A DNA stretch of 64,000 bases from assembly GCF_024267655.1 (NCBI RefSeq), contig NZ_CP100595.1:2232001-2296000 (forward strand), read 5' to 3'. The translations under genes were made by a program, and so were the position numbers. Below, in pieces: positions 385 to 44,780 of the stretch; within the stretch, counting starts at the first letter, position 1; each line of letters opens with the position of its first letter. Source of the DNA: Arcobacter roscoffensis (GTDB lineage Bacteria > Campylobacterota > Campylobacteria > Campylobacterales > Arcobacteraceae). The notes under the pieces are model-generated. The model saw only the letters and a program-made list of their open reading frames with translations. It was not told the origin of the DNA and did not search any database.

Positions 385-2334
385 ATGAAATACTACATAT
401 ATGACCTAGAGACCTTTCCAAATATCTTTACTTGTGTTATGCAAAATGCTCAAACAAAAGAGCTTAGAGTTTTTGAGTTAAGCATAAGACAAAATGACTT
501 AGCAAAACTTCTCAAAACTCTGCAATGGCTAAGTAAAACAGATAAAATATTAGTGGGATATAATAATCTAAACTTTGATTACGCAGTACTTCAATATCTC
601 TATAAAAATGCTAATAACTATGACCTAAATGAGCTTATTTATAAAACATTTCTTTTTGCTGATGAATTGATAAAAAATAATACTATTTATAAAGAAGATA
701 AAAACTCTATACTTCTAAAGCAACTTGACCTTATGAAAATACATAACTTTGATTATAAAGCAACAAGAGTTAGTCTAAAGGTTTTAGAAGTAAATATGTG
801 TATGGATTCTATTGAGGATTTAAACTTCACTATTGGAGAGAATCTAAAAACAGATGAATTTGATAATCTAATCAAATACAACAAACATGATGTTGAAGCA
901 ACACTACTTTTTTTTAATCACTCTTTAGAATCTATCGAATTTAGAGAAAGTTTAAGTTCAAAATATAATGAGTATATGCTTAATTATAGCGATACAAAAA
1001 TAGGAAAAAGATACTTTATTAGAAACCTAGAAGAAAAACTTGGAAAAGATATATGTTATATAAATGGAAAACCAAGACAAACTGTAAGAAACTTCCTTAA
1101 TTTTGGTGAGATTATATTTGATTATGTGAAGTTTGAAAGCTTTGAGTTTCAAGCTCTTTTAAAATATCTAAAAAAACAGTATACAAACGATATGTCAAAA
1201 GTCTTTTCAAGTATCAAAAAAGAAGATTTAGAAGAACTATCTTCATTTTGTAATCTAAATGCAAAAAATGAAGCTTCTTCTTTGCACCTAAACTATAAAG
1301 GCTTTTCTTTTTACTTTGGTACTGGTGGGCTTCATGGAAGTGTTGAGGGTAAGTTTTATGACCAAAGTGATGAGTATCTTATCATTGATGTAGATGTTGC
1401 TAGTTATTACCCATCTATTGTGATACAAAATAGACTCTATCCTGAACATCTTGGGGCTGAGTTTGTGGATATATATAAAGAGATAAGGGATATGAGATTT
1501 TCATACAAAAAAGGAACTTCTCAAAACAAGATGCTAAAACTAGCCCTAAACTCAGCATATGGGGATACAAATAACCAGTTTAGTCCATTTTATGACTATA
1601 AAATGACTCTAAGTATCACCCTAAACGGTCAACTTATGCTTTGTATGCTTGCTGAAAAACTTATGAGTATAGACTCTGTTTCACTTATTCAAGCAAATAC
1701 AGATGGTCTTACTTTTAAAATAGATAAAAAAGATAAAACCTTATATGAGAATATTTCTAAAAACTGGCAAGAGTTTACAGGTCTAGAACTAGAAGAAGCA
1801 ATATACAAAAAACTATGGATTAGAGATGTAAATAACTACATAGCCCTAAAAGAAAATGGTGAAGCAAAAAAAATAGGTGCTTATAAATATGAACTAGCTT
1901 GGAATCAAAATCACTCATGCCTAGTAGTACAAAAAGCAGTAGAAGCACATCTTTTAAAAGGTATCTCAATAGAAGAGTTTATCCATAATCACAGAAATAA
2001 ATATGACTTTTTACTAAATACAAAAGCTACTAAAAACATAGACTTAGTACTTGAAAAAGTTTACTCACTTGAAAAAACCTATGTAAAACTTCCAAATACT
2101 ATAAGGTATTTTATCAGTAAAAATGGTCTTTCCCTAAAAAAGATTCTTCCACCTCTAAATAACACTAGTGAGCAAAGAGTAATAGGAATAAATGTAGGAT
2201 ATAAAGTAGAGCTTTGTAATAAAATAGAAGATTTTTCATATGAGTATTTAGATTTTGATTTTTATATAAAAGAAGCCTATAAATTAATAGAGCCTTTCAA
2301 ACAAAAACAAGAATCTCTTTTTGATTTCAGCTAA
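385..2334 (+). CDS. Family B DNA polymerase, phage/plasmid type
   Basis: Predicted template-directed DNA polymerase with 3'-5' proofreading exonuclease. All expected motifs are visible. Exo I is 'YDLET' (D7, E9), exo II 'NLNFDY' (D65) and exo III 'YNKHD' (Y165, D169). Polymerase motif A is 'DVASYYPSI' (D337), motif B 'KLALNSAYG' (K385-G393) and motif C 'ANTDG' (N438, D440). Motif C has Asn where classical enzymes have the first Asp of DTD; the second Asp is kept. At 649 aa it is shorter than E. coli Pol II (about 780 aa) and resembles virus- or plasmid-encoded family B enzymes more than cellular PolB. No phage genes adjoin it, so it looks like a captured stand-alone gene. The family call is firm; the cellular role is unknown. 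Confidence 0.85.
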   Translation: MKYYIYDLETFPNIFTCVMQNAQTKELRVFELSIRQNDLAKLLKTLQWLSKTDKILVGYNNLNFDYAVLQYLYKNANNYDLNELIYKTFLFADELIKNNTIYKEDKNSILLKQLDLMKIHNFDYKATRVSLKVLEVNMCMDSIEDLNFTIGENLKTDEFDNLIKYNKHDVEATLLFFNHSLESIEFRESLSSKYNEYMLNYSDTKIGKRYFIRNLEEKLGKDICYINGKPRQTVRNFLNFGEIIFDYVKFESFEFQALLKYLKKQYTNDMSKVFSSIKKEDLEELSSFCNLNAKNEASSLHLNYKGFSFYFGTGGLHGSVEGKFYDQSDEYLIIDVDVASYYPSIVIQNRLYPEHLGAEFVDIYKEIRDMRFSYKKGTSQNKMLKLALNSAYGDTNNQFSPFYDYKMTLSITLNGQLMLCMLAEKLMSIDSVSLIQANTDGLTFKIDKKDKTLYENISKNWQEFTGLELEEAIYKKLWIRDVNNYIALKENGEAKKIGAYKYELAWNQNHSCLVVQKAVEAHLLKGISIEEFIHNHRNKYDFLLNTKATKNIDLVLEKVYSLEKTYVKLPNTIRYFISKNGLSLKKILPPLNNTSEQRVIGINVGYKVELCNKIEDFSYEYLDFDFYIKEAYKLIEPFKQKQESLFDFS

Positions 2335-2381
2335 TATTATCTCTTTATAATTGGTTAACAAACTTTTGATAACATAGGCAC

Positions 2382-2990
2382 ATGAAAAAGATAATTTTTA
2401 TCCTATGTATAATAACACTACAAATTTTAACAGCAAATTCAAGTACAAAAACTATCCTATTTTTAGGGGATTCACTAACTGAGGGCTTAGGAGTATCAAA
2501 AAATCAAGCCTATCCAAATTTAGTACAAGAACTAGCAAAAAAAGAACTAAACAAAAATATAAAAGCTATAAATGGTGGAGTTTCAGGCTCAACAACAAAT
2601 GATGCCTTATCTAGACTAAAATGGTATCTAAAAAGAAAGCCTGATATTGTATTTATTGCTCTTGGGGCAAATGATGGGCTTAGGGGTTTAAATCTTACTC
2701 AAAGCCAAAAAAATCTAGAAGAGATTATAGACTATGCCAAAAAAGCGAAGGCAAAAGTACTATTAGCAGGTATGATAATCCCACCAAATTATGGACCTGT
2801 CTACTCAAAAGAGTTTGAGAAAATGTATCTTGAAATCAAAGAAAAATATAATCTTAAATTTATGCCCTTTTTACTAAAAAATGTGGCAGGAGTACAAAGC
2901 TTAAATCAAGCAGATGGTATACATCCAAATGCTAAAGGTCATAAAATCATGTCAAAAGAAGTATTCAAGTTTCTAAAGGAAGAGTTATAA
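2382..2990 (+). CDS. tesA: SGNH-family lysophospholipase/thioesterase (TesA-like)
   Basis: An exported esterase predicted to hydrolyse acyl thioesters or lysophospholipids in the periplasm. A hydrophobic signal segment spans residues 4-18. The SGNH blocks are all present: 'GDSLTEG' with nucleophile S31, the 'NGGVSGST' oxyanion glycine, 'GAND' with N97, and 'DGIHPN' with D178 and H181. Its 202 aa match E. coli TesA. The stop codon overlaps the start of the ABC ATPase gene, and the permease follows. Thioesterase, ATPase and permease sit next to each other in E. coli as well (tesA/ybbA/ybbP), which supports the assignment. The natural substrate is not shown by the sequence. Confidence 0.85.
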   Translation: MKKIIFILCIITLQILTANSSTKTILFLGDSLTEGLGVSKNQAYPNLVQELAKKELNKNIKAINGGVSGSTTNDALSRLKWYLKRKPDIVFIALGANDGLRGLNLTQSQKNLEEIIDYAKKAKAKVLLAGMIIPPNYGPVYSKEFEKMYLEIKEKYNLKFMPFLLKNVAGVQSLNQADGIHPNAKGHKIMSKEVFKFLKEEL

Positions 2991-3652
2991 TGCTACAAAT
3001 CAAATCACTTAAAAAATCATATTCACAAGGCTCAACTGAAGTAAAAATCTATGAAGATTTAAATTTTCATGTAAAAGAAGCTTCAAAAGTTGCAATCATG
3101 GGAAAATCAGGAAGTGGAAAGTCAACCCTACTTTCACTAATCTCAGGAATCATCAAACCAACATCAGGAGACATTTTACTTGATGGTGTTTCATATAAAG
3201 ATATGAAAGAAGAACAGATAAATGACTTTAGAGCTTCAAATATAGGCTTTGTATTTCAAAACTTTCATCTTGTTTCATACTTAAACGCACTAGAAAATGT
3301 AATGCTTCCAGCAAAAGTATGTGGTATAAAAAATCCAAAAGAAAAAGCAGTTGAACTTTTAGAGAGTGTAGGATTAGGACATAGGCTTGATCACTTGCCA
3401 TCAGAACTAAGTGGTGGGGAGAAACAAAGAGTTGCAATAGCAAGAGCTTTGATACACAATCCAAAAATTATCCTAGCAGATGAACCAAGTGGAAATTTAG
3501 ATGAAGATACTGGAATAGCTGTAATGGACAAACTTTTTGAACTAATCAGTAAAAACAATACAACTTTGATTTTGGTAACTCACTCAAAAGATGTAGCTGC
3601 TAGATGTGAGCAGACTTATTCACTAAATCATGGAAACCTAGATAAATGTTAG
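2990..3652 (+). CDS. ABC transporter ATP-binding protein (YbbA/LolD-like)
   Basis: Cytoplasmic ATPase subunit of a MacB/LolD-class ABC exporter. The Walker A motif 'GKSGSGKST' is at residues 38-46, followed by a Q-loop 'FVFQNFH', the signature 'LSGGEKQRVAIARAL', the Walker B 'IILADEPSGNLD' and a 'VTHS' H-loop. The 220 aa length suits the LolD/YbbA group. The gene starts inside the tesA stop codon and its 3' end overlaps the permease gene by 7 bases, so the three genes are almost surely co-transcribed. By analogy with YbbAP it may extract lipids or hydrophobic compounds from the inner membrane. Confidence 0.88.
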   Translation: MLQIKSLKKSYSQGSTEVKIYEDLNFHVKEASKVAIMGKSGSGKSTLLSLISGIIKPTSGDILLDGVSYKDMKEEQINDFRASNIGFVFQNFHLVSYLNALENVMLPAKVCGIKNPKEKAVELLESVGLGHRLDHLPSELSGGEKQRVAIARALIHNPKIILADEPSGNLDEDTGIAVMDKLFELISKNNTTLILVTHSKDVAARCEQTYSLNHGNLDKC

Positions 3653-21748: not shown

Positions 21749-23305
21749 TTACTTTGGAACTTCTATAGTAAATCTCGCTCCATCATTTATATTTTCTACT
21801 GAAAGTTTACCTTTCATATTTTTATCTACAATTGTTTTTGACATATAAAGTCCTATTCCTGTACCATCATTATCATCTCTTGTAGTAAAGTATGGTTCAA
21901 ATATCTTTGATTTTGGTTCAACAGTAACTCCACCACCATTATCTTCTATATATAAAGATACATCAAATTCTTGCTCTTTTGCCCAAATGAAAATCTTTGG
22001 ATTACTCACATTTTTTTCAATCAATACATCTTTAGCATTTTTCAAGATATTTAAAAGTACTTGTTCATACTCATTTTGGTAAGTGAATAGTTTTATGTTT
22101 TCATCTATATCAATTGTTACAGTAATATTATTGTTTTTTAAAGCACTTGAAACAATAGTCATAACAGATTCAAGCATTTTAACTAGATAAAACTCTTCTT
22201 TCTCTTTTTTAGGCATAAAGAAGTTTCTAAAGTCATCAATAGTATGAGACATAAACTCTAAAACAGTATCTGCTTCTTTAGATTTTTTCTGCATTGTTTC
22301 ATCATCTAAAGCACCGATACTATGTTTAAATTTAATATACATCAAAATAGAAGAAAGCTCAGATAAAGGCTGTCTCCATTGATGAGCGATATTTGAAATC
22401 ATTTCACCTAAAGCAATAAACCTTGACTTTTGAATAAGAAGTTGCTCTTTTTCTCTATTTTTTTCAACCTCATAAGTTACTCTATTTTCTAAATTCTGAT
22501 TTAACTCTTCAAGCTCTTTTGTTTTTGTTTTTACTTTATTTTGATAAACTTTTAAAACCTCATCAATTTTTTGAGATACTGCAATAGAGATTAAGATAGC
22601 AATAGATAAAAACATCACAAATAAAACTATATTTTGCCCTACTTGGTTTCTTACTGTTTTTTCTAAAGCTTCTCTTTTTTTTGTTATTTCTTTTTCTATA
22701 TCGTCGATATAAACACCAACAGCAATTACCCAGTTCCAGTTTTCATAATATTTAAAGTAGGATAACTTTTGTCTAATCTCATCATTTGTATTTGGTTTTT
22801 TATATGCATATTGAGTAAAAGCTTCACCCTTTATACTTATATTTTTTAGAAACTCTTCTCTAAATTTTTTACCATTTGCATCTTTAAATTCTGTAGAAAT
22901 CAATTTACCAATAAGATCAGGTCTATTTGGATTTACAATAAGCCTTGCAAAATCATCTCCACCTTTTATGTCTAAAATATCATATACAAAATAATAGTTG
23001 CTTTTACTTTCTTGAAATGAAATATTATTTAAAAGTCTTATGGCATCTTCTTTTATCTCTTCTTCATCTGTATCTACTTTAGTAAGATTGTAATTTAATA
23101 CATCAATAACAGTATCTATCTCTTTTTTAAGTATTCTTTTTTGGTCTTCATAGTACTCTTGAACAAAATTTTCCATTTGCTTTTCAAAATCATCATATGT
23201 ATTTTTTACATAAAAATATGAAATCATAAATATCATAGACGACATAATGATTATAAAAATGTATATGGTTATTTTTGATAGATTATTTTCTGTTATTAAA
23301 TTCAA
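21749..23305 (-). CDS. Sensor histidine kinase with periplasmic Cache domain
   Basis: Membrane kinase with two spans flanking an sCache-type sensor ('YYFVYDILDIKGGDDFARL', 'YYENWNWVIAVGVYIDDI'), a coiled coil, the H-box 'NIAHQWRQPL', the N-box 'ILKNAKD' and ATP-lid boxes 'EDNGGG' and 'GTGIGLYMSK'. I prefer the TTG start at 23305, which has an AGGACAAG site five bases ahead. The ATG at 23371 would put the start two bases from the divergent regulator gene and leave no room for promoters. The partner is the response regulator on the other strand. The signal is unknown. Confidence 0.85.
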   Translation of the reverse strand: MNLITENNLSKITIYIFIIIMSSMIFMISYFYVKNTYDDFEKQMENFVQEYYEDQKRILKKEIDTVIDVLNYNLTKVDTDEEEIKEDAIRLLNNISFQESKSNYYFVYDILDIKGGDDFARLIVNPNRPDLIGKLISTEFKDANGKKFREEFLKNISIKGEAFTQYAYKKPNTNDEIRQKLSYFKYYENWNWVIAVGVYIDDIEKEITKKREALEKTVRNQVGQNIVLFVMFLSIAILISIAVSQKIDEVLKVYQNKVKTKTKELEELNQNLENRVTYEVEKNREKEQLLIQKSRFIALGEMISNIAHQWRQPLSELSSILMYIKFKHSIGALDDETMQKKSKEADTVLEFMSHTIDDFRNFFMPKKEKEEFYLVKMLESVMTIVSSALKNNNITVTIDIDENIKLFTYQNEYEQVLLNILKNAKDVLIEKNVSNPKIFIWAKEQEFDVSLYIEDNGGGVTVEPKSKIFEPYFTTRDDNDGTGIGLYMSKTIVDKNMKGKLSVENINDGARFTIEVPK

Positions 23306-23372
23306 TTTTTCTTGTCCTGTAACCTTTAATATGATATGATAACATAATATTTCTAATAAGGATTTTATCATA

Positions 23373-24068
23373 ATGCAAGATAATATAATTAGTAAGTTAA
23401 ATGCTTTTTCAGTACTTTACATAGAAGATGAAGATGGCATTAGAAATAATATCAAAGAGATATTAGACCACTTATTTAAAGAAACAATTACAGCAAAAAA
23501 CGCAAGCGATGGCCATATAAAATATGTTCAAAATAAACCTGACTTAATCATTACAGACATTAGAATGCCCCCTGGTGAAACTGGAATTGATTTAATAAAA
23601 AAAATAAGAGAATCAGATTCAAAAACTAGAATCATAATCACTTCAGCTCACACAGATTTAGAATATATGCTAAAAGCAGCTGAACTACATCTTGTAAAAT
23701 ATATCATCAAACCTATAACACAAGAAAAACTTATGGATGCTCTTGAAGCTTTTGTAAAAACACATGATGAAAATAAAATCTACACTTTAAATGAAAATTG
23801 CTATTTTGACTATAGTAAATCTATTATTTCAAACAAAGAAGAAACACACAATCTTACAAAAAAAGAGAATATGTTCTTAAAACTTCTTATCACTAAAAAT
23901 AGAATCATCACATATGAAGAAATGGAAACTCAAATCTGGGATGAAGACTCTGTTATGACACAAAATGCCATGAGATTATTTATCAAAAACTTTAGAAAAA
24001 AATTACCTGAAAAATGCCTAAAAAACATTCAAGGTACTGGATATAGACTAGTTTTAGGAGAGCAGTAG
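23373..24068 (+). CDS. Response regulator, OmpR type
   Basis: 231-aa two-component regulator. The receiver domain has acidic residues in 'LYIEDEDG', the phosphate-acceptor Asp in 'LIITDIRMPPG' and the conserved Lys in 'YIIKPI'. The C-terminal winged helix reads 'LTKKENMFLKLLI' to 'IQGTGYRLVL'. It diverges from the Cache kinase, its probable partner. The next gene starts at the base after its stop, so it heads an operon with the secreted protein and the S8 protease, and probably governs them. Confidence 0.9.
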   Translation: MQDNIISKLNAFSVLYIEDEDGIRNNIKEILDHLFKETITAKNASDGHIKYVQNKPDLIITDIRMPPGETGIDLIKKIRESDSKTRIIITSAHTDLEYMLKAAELHLVKYIIKPITQEKLMDALEAFVKTHDENKIYTLNENCYFDYSKSIISNKEETHNLTKKENMFLKLLITKNRIITYEEMETQIWDEDSVMTQNAMRLFIKNFRKKLPEKCLKNIQGTGYRLVLGEQ

Positions 24069-24485
24069 ATGAGAAAGTTTATACTTTCAACTACTCTTTT
24101 AACCTTTTGTAGCTCTTTGTTTGCAAATGAGTTTTATTATGAGTTTGATAAAAAAATAGAACTTATTAAACCAATAGAATCAAAAACTTATAGCACAAAT
24201 TCACAAGATGAAAACACTTCTGAAAAAATACATACATACCAAACAACAAATGGAAAAACAATAAAATTTAAAAATGAACTAATAGTTCAATGTCATAAAG
24301 AAGCATATTGCCAAGATGATTTTAGTGATTTAAATATTACTAACTACAAAGAAATAAGTAAGGGATTCTTTCTTATAAAAGTAGAAGATTCACAAAATAT
24401 TTTTACTCTAGCACAAGAGTTACATAACAAAGAAGATATTAAAAGTGCCACACCAAATAAATTATTAAAGTTGCAGAAAAGATGA
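24069..24485 (+). CDS. Secreted protein with propeptide-like C-terminal half
   Basis: 138 aa with a signal peptide (residues 1-19, ending 'SSLFA'). The second half ('KFKNELIVQCHKEAYC', 'EISKGFFLIKVEDSQNIF', 'ELHNKEDIKSATPNKLLKL') follows the alternating strand-helix pattern of subtilisin propeptides. Those end with a strand that enters the protease active site. Its stop overlaps the protease start (ATGA). I infer that it is a separately encoded chaperone/inhibitor of the protease; no direct family match was made. It could also be a plain periplasmic protein of unknown role. Confidence 0.65.
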   Translation: MRKFILSTTLLTFCSSLFANEFYYEFDKKIELIKPIESKTYSTNSQDENTSEKIHTYQTTNGKTIKFKNELIVQCHKEAYCQDDFSDLNITNYKEISKGFFLIKVEDSQNIFTLAQELHNKEDIKSATPNKLLKLQKR

Positions 24486-25642
24486 AATTAATTAATATTC
24501 AAAAATATAGCATAGCACTTACTTTAGCTATTAGTCTTACTGCTTGTGGTGGTGGAGGTGGAGGTAGTACCTCATCTACTTCTATTTCAAATGTTGTAAA
24601 TTCAGTGATTGATGATAATATGTTTCAGTTTGCTTGGCATATTAATAAAAATATAAACTCAACATACAAAACAAACAATAACATAAATAATGAATCACAC
24701 ATAAGTTTGGAAGAAGCTTGGGCAATAACAAAAGGTAAACAAACAAATGGTGAAGCTATAAAAGTAGCAGTAATTGATGAAGATTTTGAAGTCAATCACC
24801 CTAATATAAAAAATAAGATATATAAAGCTTACAATGCAATGGATGATACTTCAAATATTTCAGACGCAGATGGTGATACATTTTATCATGGTCTTGCGGT
24901 TGCAGGTATTATTGTAGGAGATGAAGTTGGTGTTGCTCCAAATACAGAACTTATTTTAATTAACTTGGACTTTGAAGACAATAACCTTAGTGAACTTGAT
25001 ATTTTAAAAGCCTTTAATTATGCAAAAGACAATGGAGCAAAAGTTATAAACTGTAGTTGGGGATTAGGAAATATTCCACAAACAATTTCAGATAGAATAA
25101 ATCAACTTAAAGATGATGGAATTATAGTTGTATTTGCATCTGGAAATGAAGGAGTAGACTTAGACCAAGCTGGAAATGAAGACTTATCTGAAATTAGCTC
25201 AGTTATTGGAGTGGGTGCTTCAAGTGTAAAGAATGACGTAACTTCATACTCAAACTATGGTTCAACCATTGATGTAATAGCACCTGGTGGAGGAAGTTTA
25301 AACGATGGATTACTTGGTATTTTATCCCTAGATCAAAGTGGAAGTGCAGGAGAAAATGATAATAATCAACTTTCCTATACAAATGAAAATTTAAATAACT
25401 ATACTTTAACATCTGGTACAAGCTTTGCAGCACCTACAACAAGTGGTTTAGTTGCATTAATGTTATCTGTAAACCCAAATCTTACTTTTAATCAAATAAG
25501 AACTATTTTGATTTCAACTACGGATAGAGTTGGAGGGACAGATGCAGACTACTCAAACGGTGGATTTGATACGAAAAGAGCCTATGGAAAAATAAATGCA
25601 AAAAAAGCTATAGAGGCTGCACAAGCATCACTTAACCCATAA
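24482..25642 (+). CDS. Subtilisin-like (S8) serine protease, lipoprotein
   Basis: 386-aa exported protease. A lipobox 'LTAC' followed by a Gly6 run (from residue 22) predicts lipid anchoring. The catalytic Asp is in 'VAVIDEDFEVNHP', the His in 'YHGLAVAGI', the oxyanion Asn in 'FASGNEG' and the Ser in 'SGTSFAAP'. It lacks an obvious N-terminal pro-domain of its own; the preceding gene may supply it. It is the last gene of the regulator operon and ends at a strong terminator. The substrate is unknown. Confidence 0.88.
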   Translation: MKLINIQKYSIALTLAISLTACGGGGGGSTSSTSISNVVNSVIDDNMFQFAWHINKNINSTYKTNNNINNESHISLEEAWAITKGKQTNGEAIKVAVIDEDFEVNHPNIKNKIYKAYNAMDDTSNISDADGDTFYHGLAVAGIIVGDEVGVAPNTELILINLDFEDNNLSELDILKAFNYAKDNGAKVINCSWGLGNIPQTISDRINQLKDDGIIVVFASGNEGVDLDQAGNEDLSEISSVIGVGASSVKNDVTSYSNYGSTIDVIAPGGGSLNDGLLGILSLDQSGSAGENDNNQLSYTNENLNNYTLTSGTSFAAPTTSGLVALMLSVNPNLTFNQIRTILISTTDRVGGTDADYSNGGFDTKRAYGKINAKKAIEAAQASLNP

Positions 25643-43688: not shown

Positions 43689-43772
43689 TGGTACCAGTGA
43701 CCGGACTCGAACCGGTACGCCCTAAGGCAAAAGATTTTGAATCTCTCAAGTCTACCATTCCATCACACTGGC
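43689..43772 (-). tRNA. tRNA-Leu (CAA)
   Basis: Minus-strand cloverleaf with a long variable arm. The anticodon loop TTCAAAA gives CAA, the T-arm is CCGGTTCGAGTCCGG, and CCA is encoded. The acceptor opens with a G1-U72 pair. It is the last tRNA of the array. Between it and the next tRNA lies an AGCT-rich nested inverted repeat (about 43789-43835), probably an RNA-processing hairpin. Confidence 0.93.
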
Positions 43773-43840
43773 ATAATGTTGCTAAAAAAAAGCTTCTAGC
43801 TAAAAGAACTAAAAGTTCAAATAGCTAAAAGCTTTGTAAT

Positions 43841-43917
<77 letters not shown>

Positions 43918-43976
43918 ATTTGAAATACTTATTAGTATTTTATAAAATTCAACATAATAATATTGTTGGATTGTAG

Positions 43977-44051
43977 TGGATGGGGTAGAGGGATTCGAAC
44001 CCCCGAATAACGATACCAAAAACCGTTGCCTTACCACTTGGCGATACCCCA
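43977..44051 (-). tRNA. tRNA-Gln (TTG)
   Basis: Minus-strand cloverleaf with acceptor TGGGGTA/TACCCCA, anticodon loop TTTTGGT giving TTG, T-arm GGGGGTTCGAATCCCTC, and encoded CCA. Confidence 0.94.
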
Positions 44052-44091
44052 TTCTGAGTCTAACATATAATTTGTGTAGTTTAAAATAAAG

Positions 44092-44168
44092 TGGAGCTGG
44101 TGAAGGGACTTGAACCCCCGACCTGCTGATTACAAATCAGCTGCTCTAGCCAACTGAGCTACACCAGC
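44092..44168 (-). tRNA. tRNA-Thr (TGT)
   Basis: Acceptor GCTGGTG/CACCAGC, anticodon loop TTTGTAA giving TGT, T-arm GGGGGTTCAAGTCCCTT, discriminator T, encoded CCA. Confidence 0.94.
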
Positions 44169-44205
44169 TTCCAAAATTAATAAAGATTATTCACTATGTG
44201 AATAA

Positions 44206-44282
44206 TGGTGTCAAGAGAGAGACTTGAACTCTCGACCTCCGGCTTATGAGACCAGCGCTCTAGCCAGCTGAGCTACCTTGAC
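44206..44282 (-). tRNA. Elongator tRNA-Met (CAT)
   Basis: Acceptor GTCAAGG pairs fully with its 3' arm, so it is not an initiator. The anticodon is CAT. The D-arm 'AGCTCAGCTGGCTAGAGCG' is like elongator Met tRNAs. I call this Met and the CAT tRNA at 44600 Ile by resemblance; the two could be exchanged. Confidence 0.8.
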
Positions 44283-44292
44283 ACTGACTAAT

Positions 44293-44369
<77 letters not shown>

Positions 44370-44387
44370 TTATGTTAAAATAATAAG

Positions 44388-44464
44388 TGGAGCGGGAGAC
44401 GAGACTCGAACTCGCGACAATCTGCTTGGAAGGCAGAGGCTCTAGCCAACTGAGCTACTCCCGC
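44388..44464 (-). tRNA. tRNA-Gly (TCC), copy 1
   Basis: Acceptor GCGGGAG/CTCCCGC, anticodon loop CTTCCAA giving TCC, encoded CCA. The 77-base gene is identical to the next copy. Confidence 0.95.
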
Positions 44465-44517
44465 TCATATGGTAAATTAATTAAAAAATAAATAGTATTA
44501 CCAACCCTATTTATTAG

Positions 44518-44594
44518 TGGAGCGGGAGACGAGACTCGAACTCGCGACAATCTGCTTGGAAGGCAGAGGCTCTAGCCAACTGAGCTACTCCCGC
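44518..44594 (-). tRNA. tRNA-Gly (TCC), copy 2
   Basis: Exact duplicate of the preceding tRNA-Gly gene, separated from it by 53 bases of AT-rich spacer. A recent tandem duplication is likely. Confidence 0.95.
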
Positions 44595-44599
44595 ATAAG

Positions 44600-44676
44600 T
44601 GGTGGGTCTAGAAGGACTCGAACCTTCGACCACTCGGTTATGAGCCGAGTGCTCTAACCAGCTGAGCTATAGACCC
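44600..44676 (-). tRNA. tRNA-Ile2 (CAT, presumed lysidine-modified)
   Basis: Acceptor GGGTCTA with its full complement, anticodon CAT in the stem 'CTCGG CTCATAA CCGAG', encoded CCA. The anticodon arm and 'GTCGAAGGTTCGAGTCCTT' resemble tRNA-Ile(CAT), whose C34 is changed to lysidine by TilS to read AUA. The alternative is an elongator Met tRNA. Confidence 0.75.
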
Positions 44677-44685
44677 TCACTTAAA

Positions 44686-44780
44686 TGGCGGACAGAGAGG
44701 GATTCGAACCCTCGGTACCGTTGCCAGTACGCATCCTTAGCAGGGATGTGGTTTAAGCCAGCTCACCCATCTATCCGTCT
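44686..44780 (-). tRNA. tRNA-Ser (GCT)
   Basis: A 95-base gene with a long variable arm, anticodon loop CTGCTAA giving GCT, discriminator G and encoded CCA. The acceptor reads AGACGGA against TCTGTCC, leaving an A1-C72 mismatch where a G-C pair is normal. It is first in the array. A TATAAT element at 44815-44820 on the minus strand, about 35 bases upstream, is the probable array promoter. Confidence 0.9.

Follow-up and report, generated by a model that had tools for sequence, protein, structure and literature searches.

A probable trans-encoded propeptide upstream of a subtilase lipoprotein in Arcobacter roscoffensis

Subtilase propeptides serve as folding helpers and temporary inhibitors, and they are usually N-terminal to the S8 domain in the same protein. 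To our knowledge, few bacterial proteases have a separately encoded propeptide. The locus described here is from Arcobacter roscoffensis (RefSeq assembly GCF_024267655.1, contig NZ_CP100595.1; the source genome, G000, is a single contig of 3.15 Mb). It lies within a stretch of 64,000 nucleotides (positions 2,232,001 to 2,296,000 of the forward strand), which is referred to in full as the window. A sensor kinase gene is divergent from three genes that encode a response regulator, a secreted protein of 138 residues and an S8 subtilase with a lipobox. The 138-residue protein is very probably a propeptide that is expressed from a separate gene and belongs to the neighbouring protease.

The Aeromonas sobria subtilase ASP has no propeptide and requires ORF2, which is encoded separately by a neighbouring gene (PMC5638518). 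The same paper places the C-terminal region of ORF2, which ends in Lys, at the catalytic site of ASP, gives an IC50 of 84.3 nM for the inhibition of ASP by ORF2 and describes homologous operons in four further genera (PMC5638518). The window locus is similar in that a separate, secreted small protein (signal peptide identified by eye) adjoins a subtilase without a propeptide. The catalytic part of a fused relative, in which propeptide and protease are a single protein, aligns with ASP at Z 39.7. The two systems differ in gene order, with orf2 described downstream of asp and the propeptide gene of the window upstream of the protease gene; genome G293 has the same order as Aeromonas. ASP is described as extracellular, whereas the window protease has a lipobox, and fused relatives are seen in the family of the window protein. 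An earlier, sequence-only reading of the locus called an inhibitor or chaperone encoded in trans under a dedicated two-component system unusual. This is partly right, but ASP/ORF2 already has a separate chaperone (PMC5638518). By analogy, the window system may work like ASP/ORF2, with a different gene order and anchoring and with a similarity to PF18492 (ORF_2_N) that is below threshold.

As far as is known, the proteases targeted by the stand-alone propeptide-like inhibitors of eukaryotes have propeptides of their own. Such inhibitors in MEROPS I9 are Pleurotus peptidase A inhibitor 1, yeast peptidase B inhibitor and Arabidopsis SPI-1, and TgMIC5 and SUB1-ProM are also described (PMC6993865). 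Like the window protein, all of these are small, separate proteins with the propeptide fold; unlike it, they are eukaryotic and are described as inhibitors. In a study of clostridial CspB, co-expression of the prodomain in trans restored folding and the P3-P1 tail closes the active site (PMC3567191). The natural cspB gene is fused and the supply in trans was engineered. Among the matches listed from the open-licence literature, no paper was found on this arrangement in Arcobacter or Campylobacterota.

Homologues of the 138-residue protein were found in a search of 100 related genomes, and an S8 gene adjoins most of the strong ones. A profile built from 13 homologues (A1) matches 20 of 104 genomes of the family and at least 83 of 398 genomes drawn from the order, which is a lower bound because at most ten candidates were scored per genome. 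For order-survey hits without a locus, 60 loci were added and 22, all below 40 bits, were left out. The loci contain 110 distinct ORFs with the domain. These are either a small ORF with an S8 ORF downstream (split, 62), a single ORF in which the domain precedes S8 (fused, 30) or in neither class (18, many of them weak hits or at contig ends). One of the last group, L093, is split and has a lipobox when read by hand; together with L077, it makes two further split pairs beyond the 62. The 62 include L117, in which the S8 gene is a 109-aa fragment 221 bp away. The gap between the two genes is -16 to +6 bp in 59 of the 62 split loci, with an exact 4-bp overlap in 33. Since the order of propeptide gene and S8 gene recurs in 62 loci, it is more than chance. 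In L077/L253 (G293 C48), the order is reversed, and a lipoprotein S8 gene is followed by the propeptide gene and then by a gene that is dihydroorotase-like by eye. Propeptide and protease distances are correlated (Mantel r 0.81 for 53 split pairs, ten pairs left out; a value reached by 0 of 2000 permutations). Where a genome has two split pairs, propeptide and protease point to the same nearest relative in 9 of 12 cases, which is suggestive of partner specificity and no more. Weak relatives of the propeptide (L013 and L042-L045, 28-51 bits) occur in other gene contexts with no adjoining S8 gene. The propeptide of L004 ends in DYSTY, without a basic residue, and the genome that contains L083 (G325) is 65% complete.

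The split and fused forms have matching ends. In 60 of the 62 split proteins, the stop codon is exactly nine residues past the conserved Pro of HP[ND]F, and the last residue is Arg (58), Lys (1) or Gln (1). The other two stop one and three residues sooner and end in R and K. Fused proteins have Arg at the equivalent position in 28 of 30 cases (27 by script and one, L089, by eye), the exceptions being L119 (Ser) and L124 (Tyr). The residue after that position is R or K in none of the 30, and the catalytic part then follows. In a second alignment (A3, 19 rows, overlapping the split and fused set), the C-terminal Arg is present in 19 of 19 rows. The split protein resembles a propeptide after cleavage because its C-terminus coincides with the putative processing Arg of the fused forms. 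The sequence-only reading had proposed a propeptide encoded in trans, and the fused homologues, this coincidence and the predicted fold support it well. The two genes could alternatively be a normal proprotease gene that was split by mutation or by a sequencing error, and the ATGA overlap between them invites a frameshift reading. However, each half has its own signal peptide, and the split recurs in 62 loci and across genera with a conserved basic C-terminus. An artefact or pseudogene is hardly conceivable.

The AlphaFold model of the 138-residue protein is closest to ORF2 in VIA-align, which re-aligns Foldseek's own candidates. Model residues 19-138 align with ORF2 (3wqb_B) at Z 9.6 and rmsd 2.7 over 93/99 residues, 1.6 Z above the next row. 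CspC follows (8.0, its N-terminal residues), and then CspC-CspA and the PC1/3 prodomain (7.4). Foldseek places three entries ahead of ORF2 by E-value, namely EF-1 beta (0.10), a PAM protease chain and the PC1/3 prodomain; ORF2 itself has an E-value of 0.18 with probability 0.99, and its query TM-score of 0.47 is the highest in the best 50 rows. All structure models are of single chains. The C-terminal residue is Arg or Lys, and it may lie at the catalytic Ser, where ORF2 has its C-terminal region.

Three of the 19 A3 members match PF18492 at E<=1, all below the gathering score (best L186, 24.2 vs 29.2 bits). The window protein does not match PF18492 and hence is not a member of that family. 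The link to ORF2 is thus a predicted one, drawn from the modelled fold and these sub-threshold matches. The fervidolysin prodomain is in cis. Its family, PF22148 (Fervidolysin_NPro-like), is matched by 12 of the 19 A3 members at E<=1, five of them above the gathering score, and the window protein itself is unmatched. None of the 18 Pfam families that the 19 A3 members match at E<=1 is PF05922 (Inhibitor I9). Among PDB sequences, nothing convincing was found for the 138-residue protein (best E 0.13).

The protease is an S8 subtilase by its PF00082 match, its Asp-His-Ser triad (D99, H136, S314) and its oxyanion Asn (N222). A PF00082 search of the whole genome of the window gives one match. The match starts at residue 90, about 67 residues after the lipobox Cys22, and no pro-domain was matched ahead of it, in agreement with the earlier claim that the protease lacks a pro-domain of its own. 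Asp is present at the position of Asp234 in 68 of 68 ungapped split rows, 29 of 31 fused rows and none of the three outgroup rows with a residue there. The Asp234 loop may shape the S1 pocket. For the catalytic part of the fused model, the top alignments are ties, with Kex2 at Z 45.4, mirolase at 45.0 and furin at 44.9. Because of the conserved Asp234 and this alignment, the protease would likely prefer basic P1 residues.

A lipobox is present on the protease in 61 of the 62 split loci and in none of the 30 fused loci. The strict rule gives 56 of 62, to which are added L060, L080 and L122 by a relaxed rule, L131 (LLSC) by eye and L086 when a later start is taken; L117 does not allow a judgement. 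On its own, the relaxed rule finds a lipobox in 58 of 62 split loci (losing L040) and 0 of 30 fused. Six of the 30 fused proteins have a Cys at residues 12-35, none of them in a lipobox. One interpretation, to which we would give slightly less than an even chance, is that lipid anchoring selects for a propeptide in trans, cut exactly at the autoprocessing Arg so that it is a pre-cleaved foldase-inhibitor, and that ORF2-type chaperones may likewise derive from ordinary propeptides in cis. The split could instead be unrelated to anchoring if one or two ancestral lineages by chance became both split and lipidated. In the tree of 104 catalytic domains (six short rows left out), the split state requires three changes, and well-supported (starred) branches force two of these. 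The script-scored lipobox label requires five changes, with two rows (L086 and L131) mis-scored. Such a small number of changes is consistent with chance, as is Aeromonas ASP/ORF2, which is split though ASP is described as extracellular (PMC5638518). Set against chance is a single misfit in 92 loci, and that locus has an S8 fragment only. Coincidence is a serious possibility that falls somewhat short of being probable.

Several observations weigh against a trans-encoded propeptide or its connection with anchoring. At E<=1, neither Pfam nor NCBIfam gives a match to the 138-residue protein. The A1 and A3 profiles match three and two PDB chains at E<=10, with no subtilase propeptide among them. 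The Foldseek E-values are weak (best 0.10), and unrelated ferredoxin-like folds are in the VIA-align list from Z about 7.3 down. The model of the fused relative (pLDDT 86, pTM 0.76) has pLDDT below 50 at junction residues 117-120, and it gives no demonstration of docking because the junction between propeptide and catalytic part is unsure. The correlation between propeptide and protease distances is also expected from common inheritance. A lipobox-like motif occurs in seven of the 62 split propeptides (L055, L063, L064, L066, L080, L085 and L097), which may also be membrane-anchored. The link between lipobox and split state rests on two to three independent changes and cannot reach significance because the independent events are few. 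Finally, the propeptide genes of L083 (G325 C139) and L004 (G067 C219) have no S8 neighbour in the stretch examined; their products are possibly stand-alone inhibitors or have partners at a distance.

Such unpaired genes would also fit a small protein that has the propeptide fold and is an inhibitor only, like fungal POIA1 and the yeast peptidase B inhibitor, beside a protease that folds unaided. Stand-alone propeptide-like inhibitors exist (PMC6993865), and in hyperthermophilic archaea the propeptides of subtilases are described as mainly inhibitory (PMC10580911). The pairing with a following protease in 62 loci and the fused relatives argue for a propeptide, although they do not directly separate a foldase from an inhibitor. 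An inhibitor-only role is unlikely.

The kinase contains the Pfam domains sCache_2 and HATPase_c, with HisKA at 12.7 bits, below the cut-off, and the regulator contains Response_reg and Trans_reg_C. Matches to the regulator at E<=1e-30, with paralogues counted, occur in 90 of the 104 genomes of the family; the best hits are 51-86% identical and the weaker rows are paralogues. The regulator locus was read in detail in 18 genomes picked from the best regulator hits (4 carriers and 14 non-carriers). In the carriers (G000, G034, G139 and G017), the propeptide gene is after the regulator gene and is followed by the S8 gene where the contig continues; the contig of G139 stops after the propeptide gene. 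The order of the kinase, regulator, EI24 and radical-SAM genes is the same in 13 of the 14 non-carriers, with no intact propeptide-protease pair; in one of these 13, G140, the kinase is in two ORFs. The exception is G120, without EI24 in the stretch read. The kinase and regulator are thus family-wide and not restricted to carriers, and the dedicated two-component system proposed in the sequence-only reading is not supported. The presence of a regulator gene in an operon is no proof that the regulation is dedicated to it, and the tempting reading to that effect is corrected here.

This regulator is directly upstream of the propeptide gene in three of the 62 split loci (the window, G034 and G017); the survey covered less than 300 bp of upstream sequence in five of the 62. 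A different OmpR-type regulator (phmmer E 1.6e-9) is present in L070 at 707-1417, 80 bp upstream of a split pair at 1498-3278 on the same strand. Given L070, the order of regulator, propeptide and protease may have arisen more than once. L070 also speaks a little for a recurring link and against a wholly accidental association of regulator and protease. Alternatively, the small protein could act on the Cache kinase as a periplasmic ligand or brake and be turned over by the protease, a signalling loop for which CpxP/DegP is the model. Regulator, small protein and protease are in one apparent operon, and L070 has its own regulator near the pair, both of which would fit such a loop. The kinase and regulator that are kept without an intact pair in the non-carriers, the rarity of this regulator next to split pairs and the membership of the 138-residue protein in a propeptide-like family make it very improbable.

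A single clade of carriers is not supported, as G017 groups with non-carriers in the kinase tree (96/92). In G142 (L243, 4466-4736, minus strand), a decayed propeptide remnant (31 aa, 48% identity, E 2.9e-4) and a decayed protease remnant (E 0.002) are present between the regulator and EI24 genes; these E-values are for a very small search space. The persistence of these remnants in the regulator-EI24 gap points to loss of the pair in the G142 lineage. More than one gain of the pair at the same site is possible. Most likely, the kinase-regulator locus is the older element, and in some lineages the protease pair is transcribed through it.

The coordinates of all features are listed in Table 1. 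The coordinates, strands, junctions and divergent kinase given in the sequence-only reading were all borne out when the sequence was reread. The regulator stop codon ends at 24068 and the propeptide ORF begins at 24069, with a 0-base gap, and the propeptide and protease genes share an ATGA overlap at 24482-24485. From these 0- and 4-base junctions, the three genes would be co-transcribed. For the kinase, a start at 23371 probably lies too far upstream. The homologous kinase ORF begins at the codon equivalent to window residue 23 in 7 of 11 loci, and two kinase relatives begin MNLITEKNLSK at that position. A TTG at about 23305 is the probable start, which would give a divergent intergenic region of 67 bp. 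A TATGATAnCATA-like element is found in this region in carriers and non-carriers alike. An exact match to TATGATAACATAAT occurs once in the genome, and no enrichment indicative of a regulon was found for the motif in the genome (14 sites with <=1 mismatch vs 22 for a reversed control pattern). Elsewhere in the window, a cluster of ten tRNA genes is on the minus strand at 43689-44776, with a CAT anticodon in four.

Table 1. Features of the locus, with positions counted from the first nucleotide of the window.
Feature	Position	Strand	Basis
sCache_2 sensor kinase	21749..23305	-	Probable TTG start 23305; ORF open to 23371; Pfam and homologous loci
TATGATAACATAAT in the kinase-regulator intergenic region, promoter/operator candidate	23335..23348	+	Similar sequence in aligned relatives
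OmpR-type response regulator	23373..24068	+	Pfam; present across the family
AGGAGAG, Shine-Dalgarno-like, for the propeptide gene	24056..24062	+	Within the coding end of the regulator; sequence
Probable trans-encoded propeptide (putative external chaperone/inhibitor), 138 aa, secreted	24069..24485	+	62 split and 30 fused loci; ORF2 3wqb_B Z 9.6
Signal peptide of the propeptide protein, about residues 1-19 (...SSLFA, then NEF)	24069..24125	+	By eye; helix 3-15 in model
Propeptide core fold, about residues 64-132	24258..24464	+	Model secondary structure
C-terminal tail, conserved Pro129 to Arg138, coinciding with the putative processing site of fused relatives	24453..24482	+	Alignments
S8 subtilase lipoprotein, 386 aa	24482..25642	+	PF00082 1.2e-47; D99, H136, N222, S314 conserved
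Lipobox LTAC (Cys22), then Gly-rich stretch	24536..24547	+	Sequence
Catalytic Asp99	24776..24778	+	Conservation
Catalytic His136	24887..24889	+	Conservation
Asp234, conserved acidic loop residue, proposed S1-shaping	25181..25183	+	Alignment rows
Catalytic Ser314	25421..25423	+	Conservation

In the proposed mechanism, the propeptide and the protease would each be exported by their own signal peptide. By analogy with the systems described above, the propeptide, once in the periplasm or at the membrane, would associate with the nascent catalytic domain, aid its folding and inhibit it. Its C-terminal tail would plug the active site, with Arg138 as a ready-made P1 product in S1. Fused forms would be autoprocessed at the equivalent Arg. 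The enzyme would be activated once the protease itself, or another protease, degrades the propeptide. Autoprocessing of a propeptide in cis would cost the protease its lipid anchor, and without a covalent N-terminal propeptide the anchor would be kept; this may be the reason for the split. The pair would be expressed along with the regulator, by read-through from the older, family-wide kinase-regulator locus.

What is new is a single family that has propeptides both in cis and in trans, with matching ends, found repeatedly in the taxonomic order of the window genome and, in the trans form, associated with lipoproteins. Such a family shows the position of the cut and provides natural pairs for asking what purpose the covalent link to a propeptide serves. 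The anchoring idea, if true, would explain why the split is kept.

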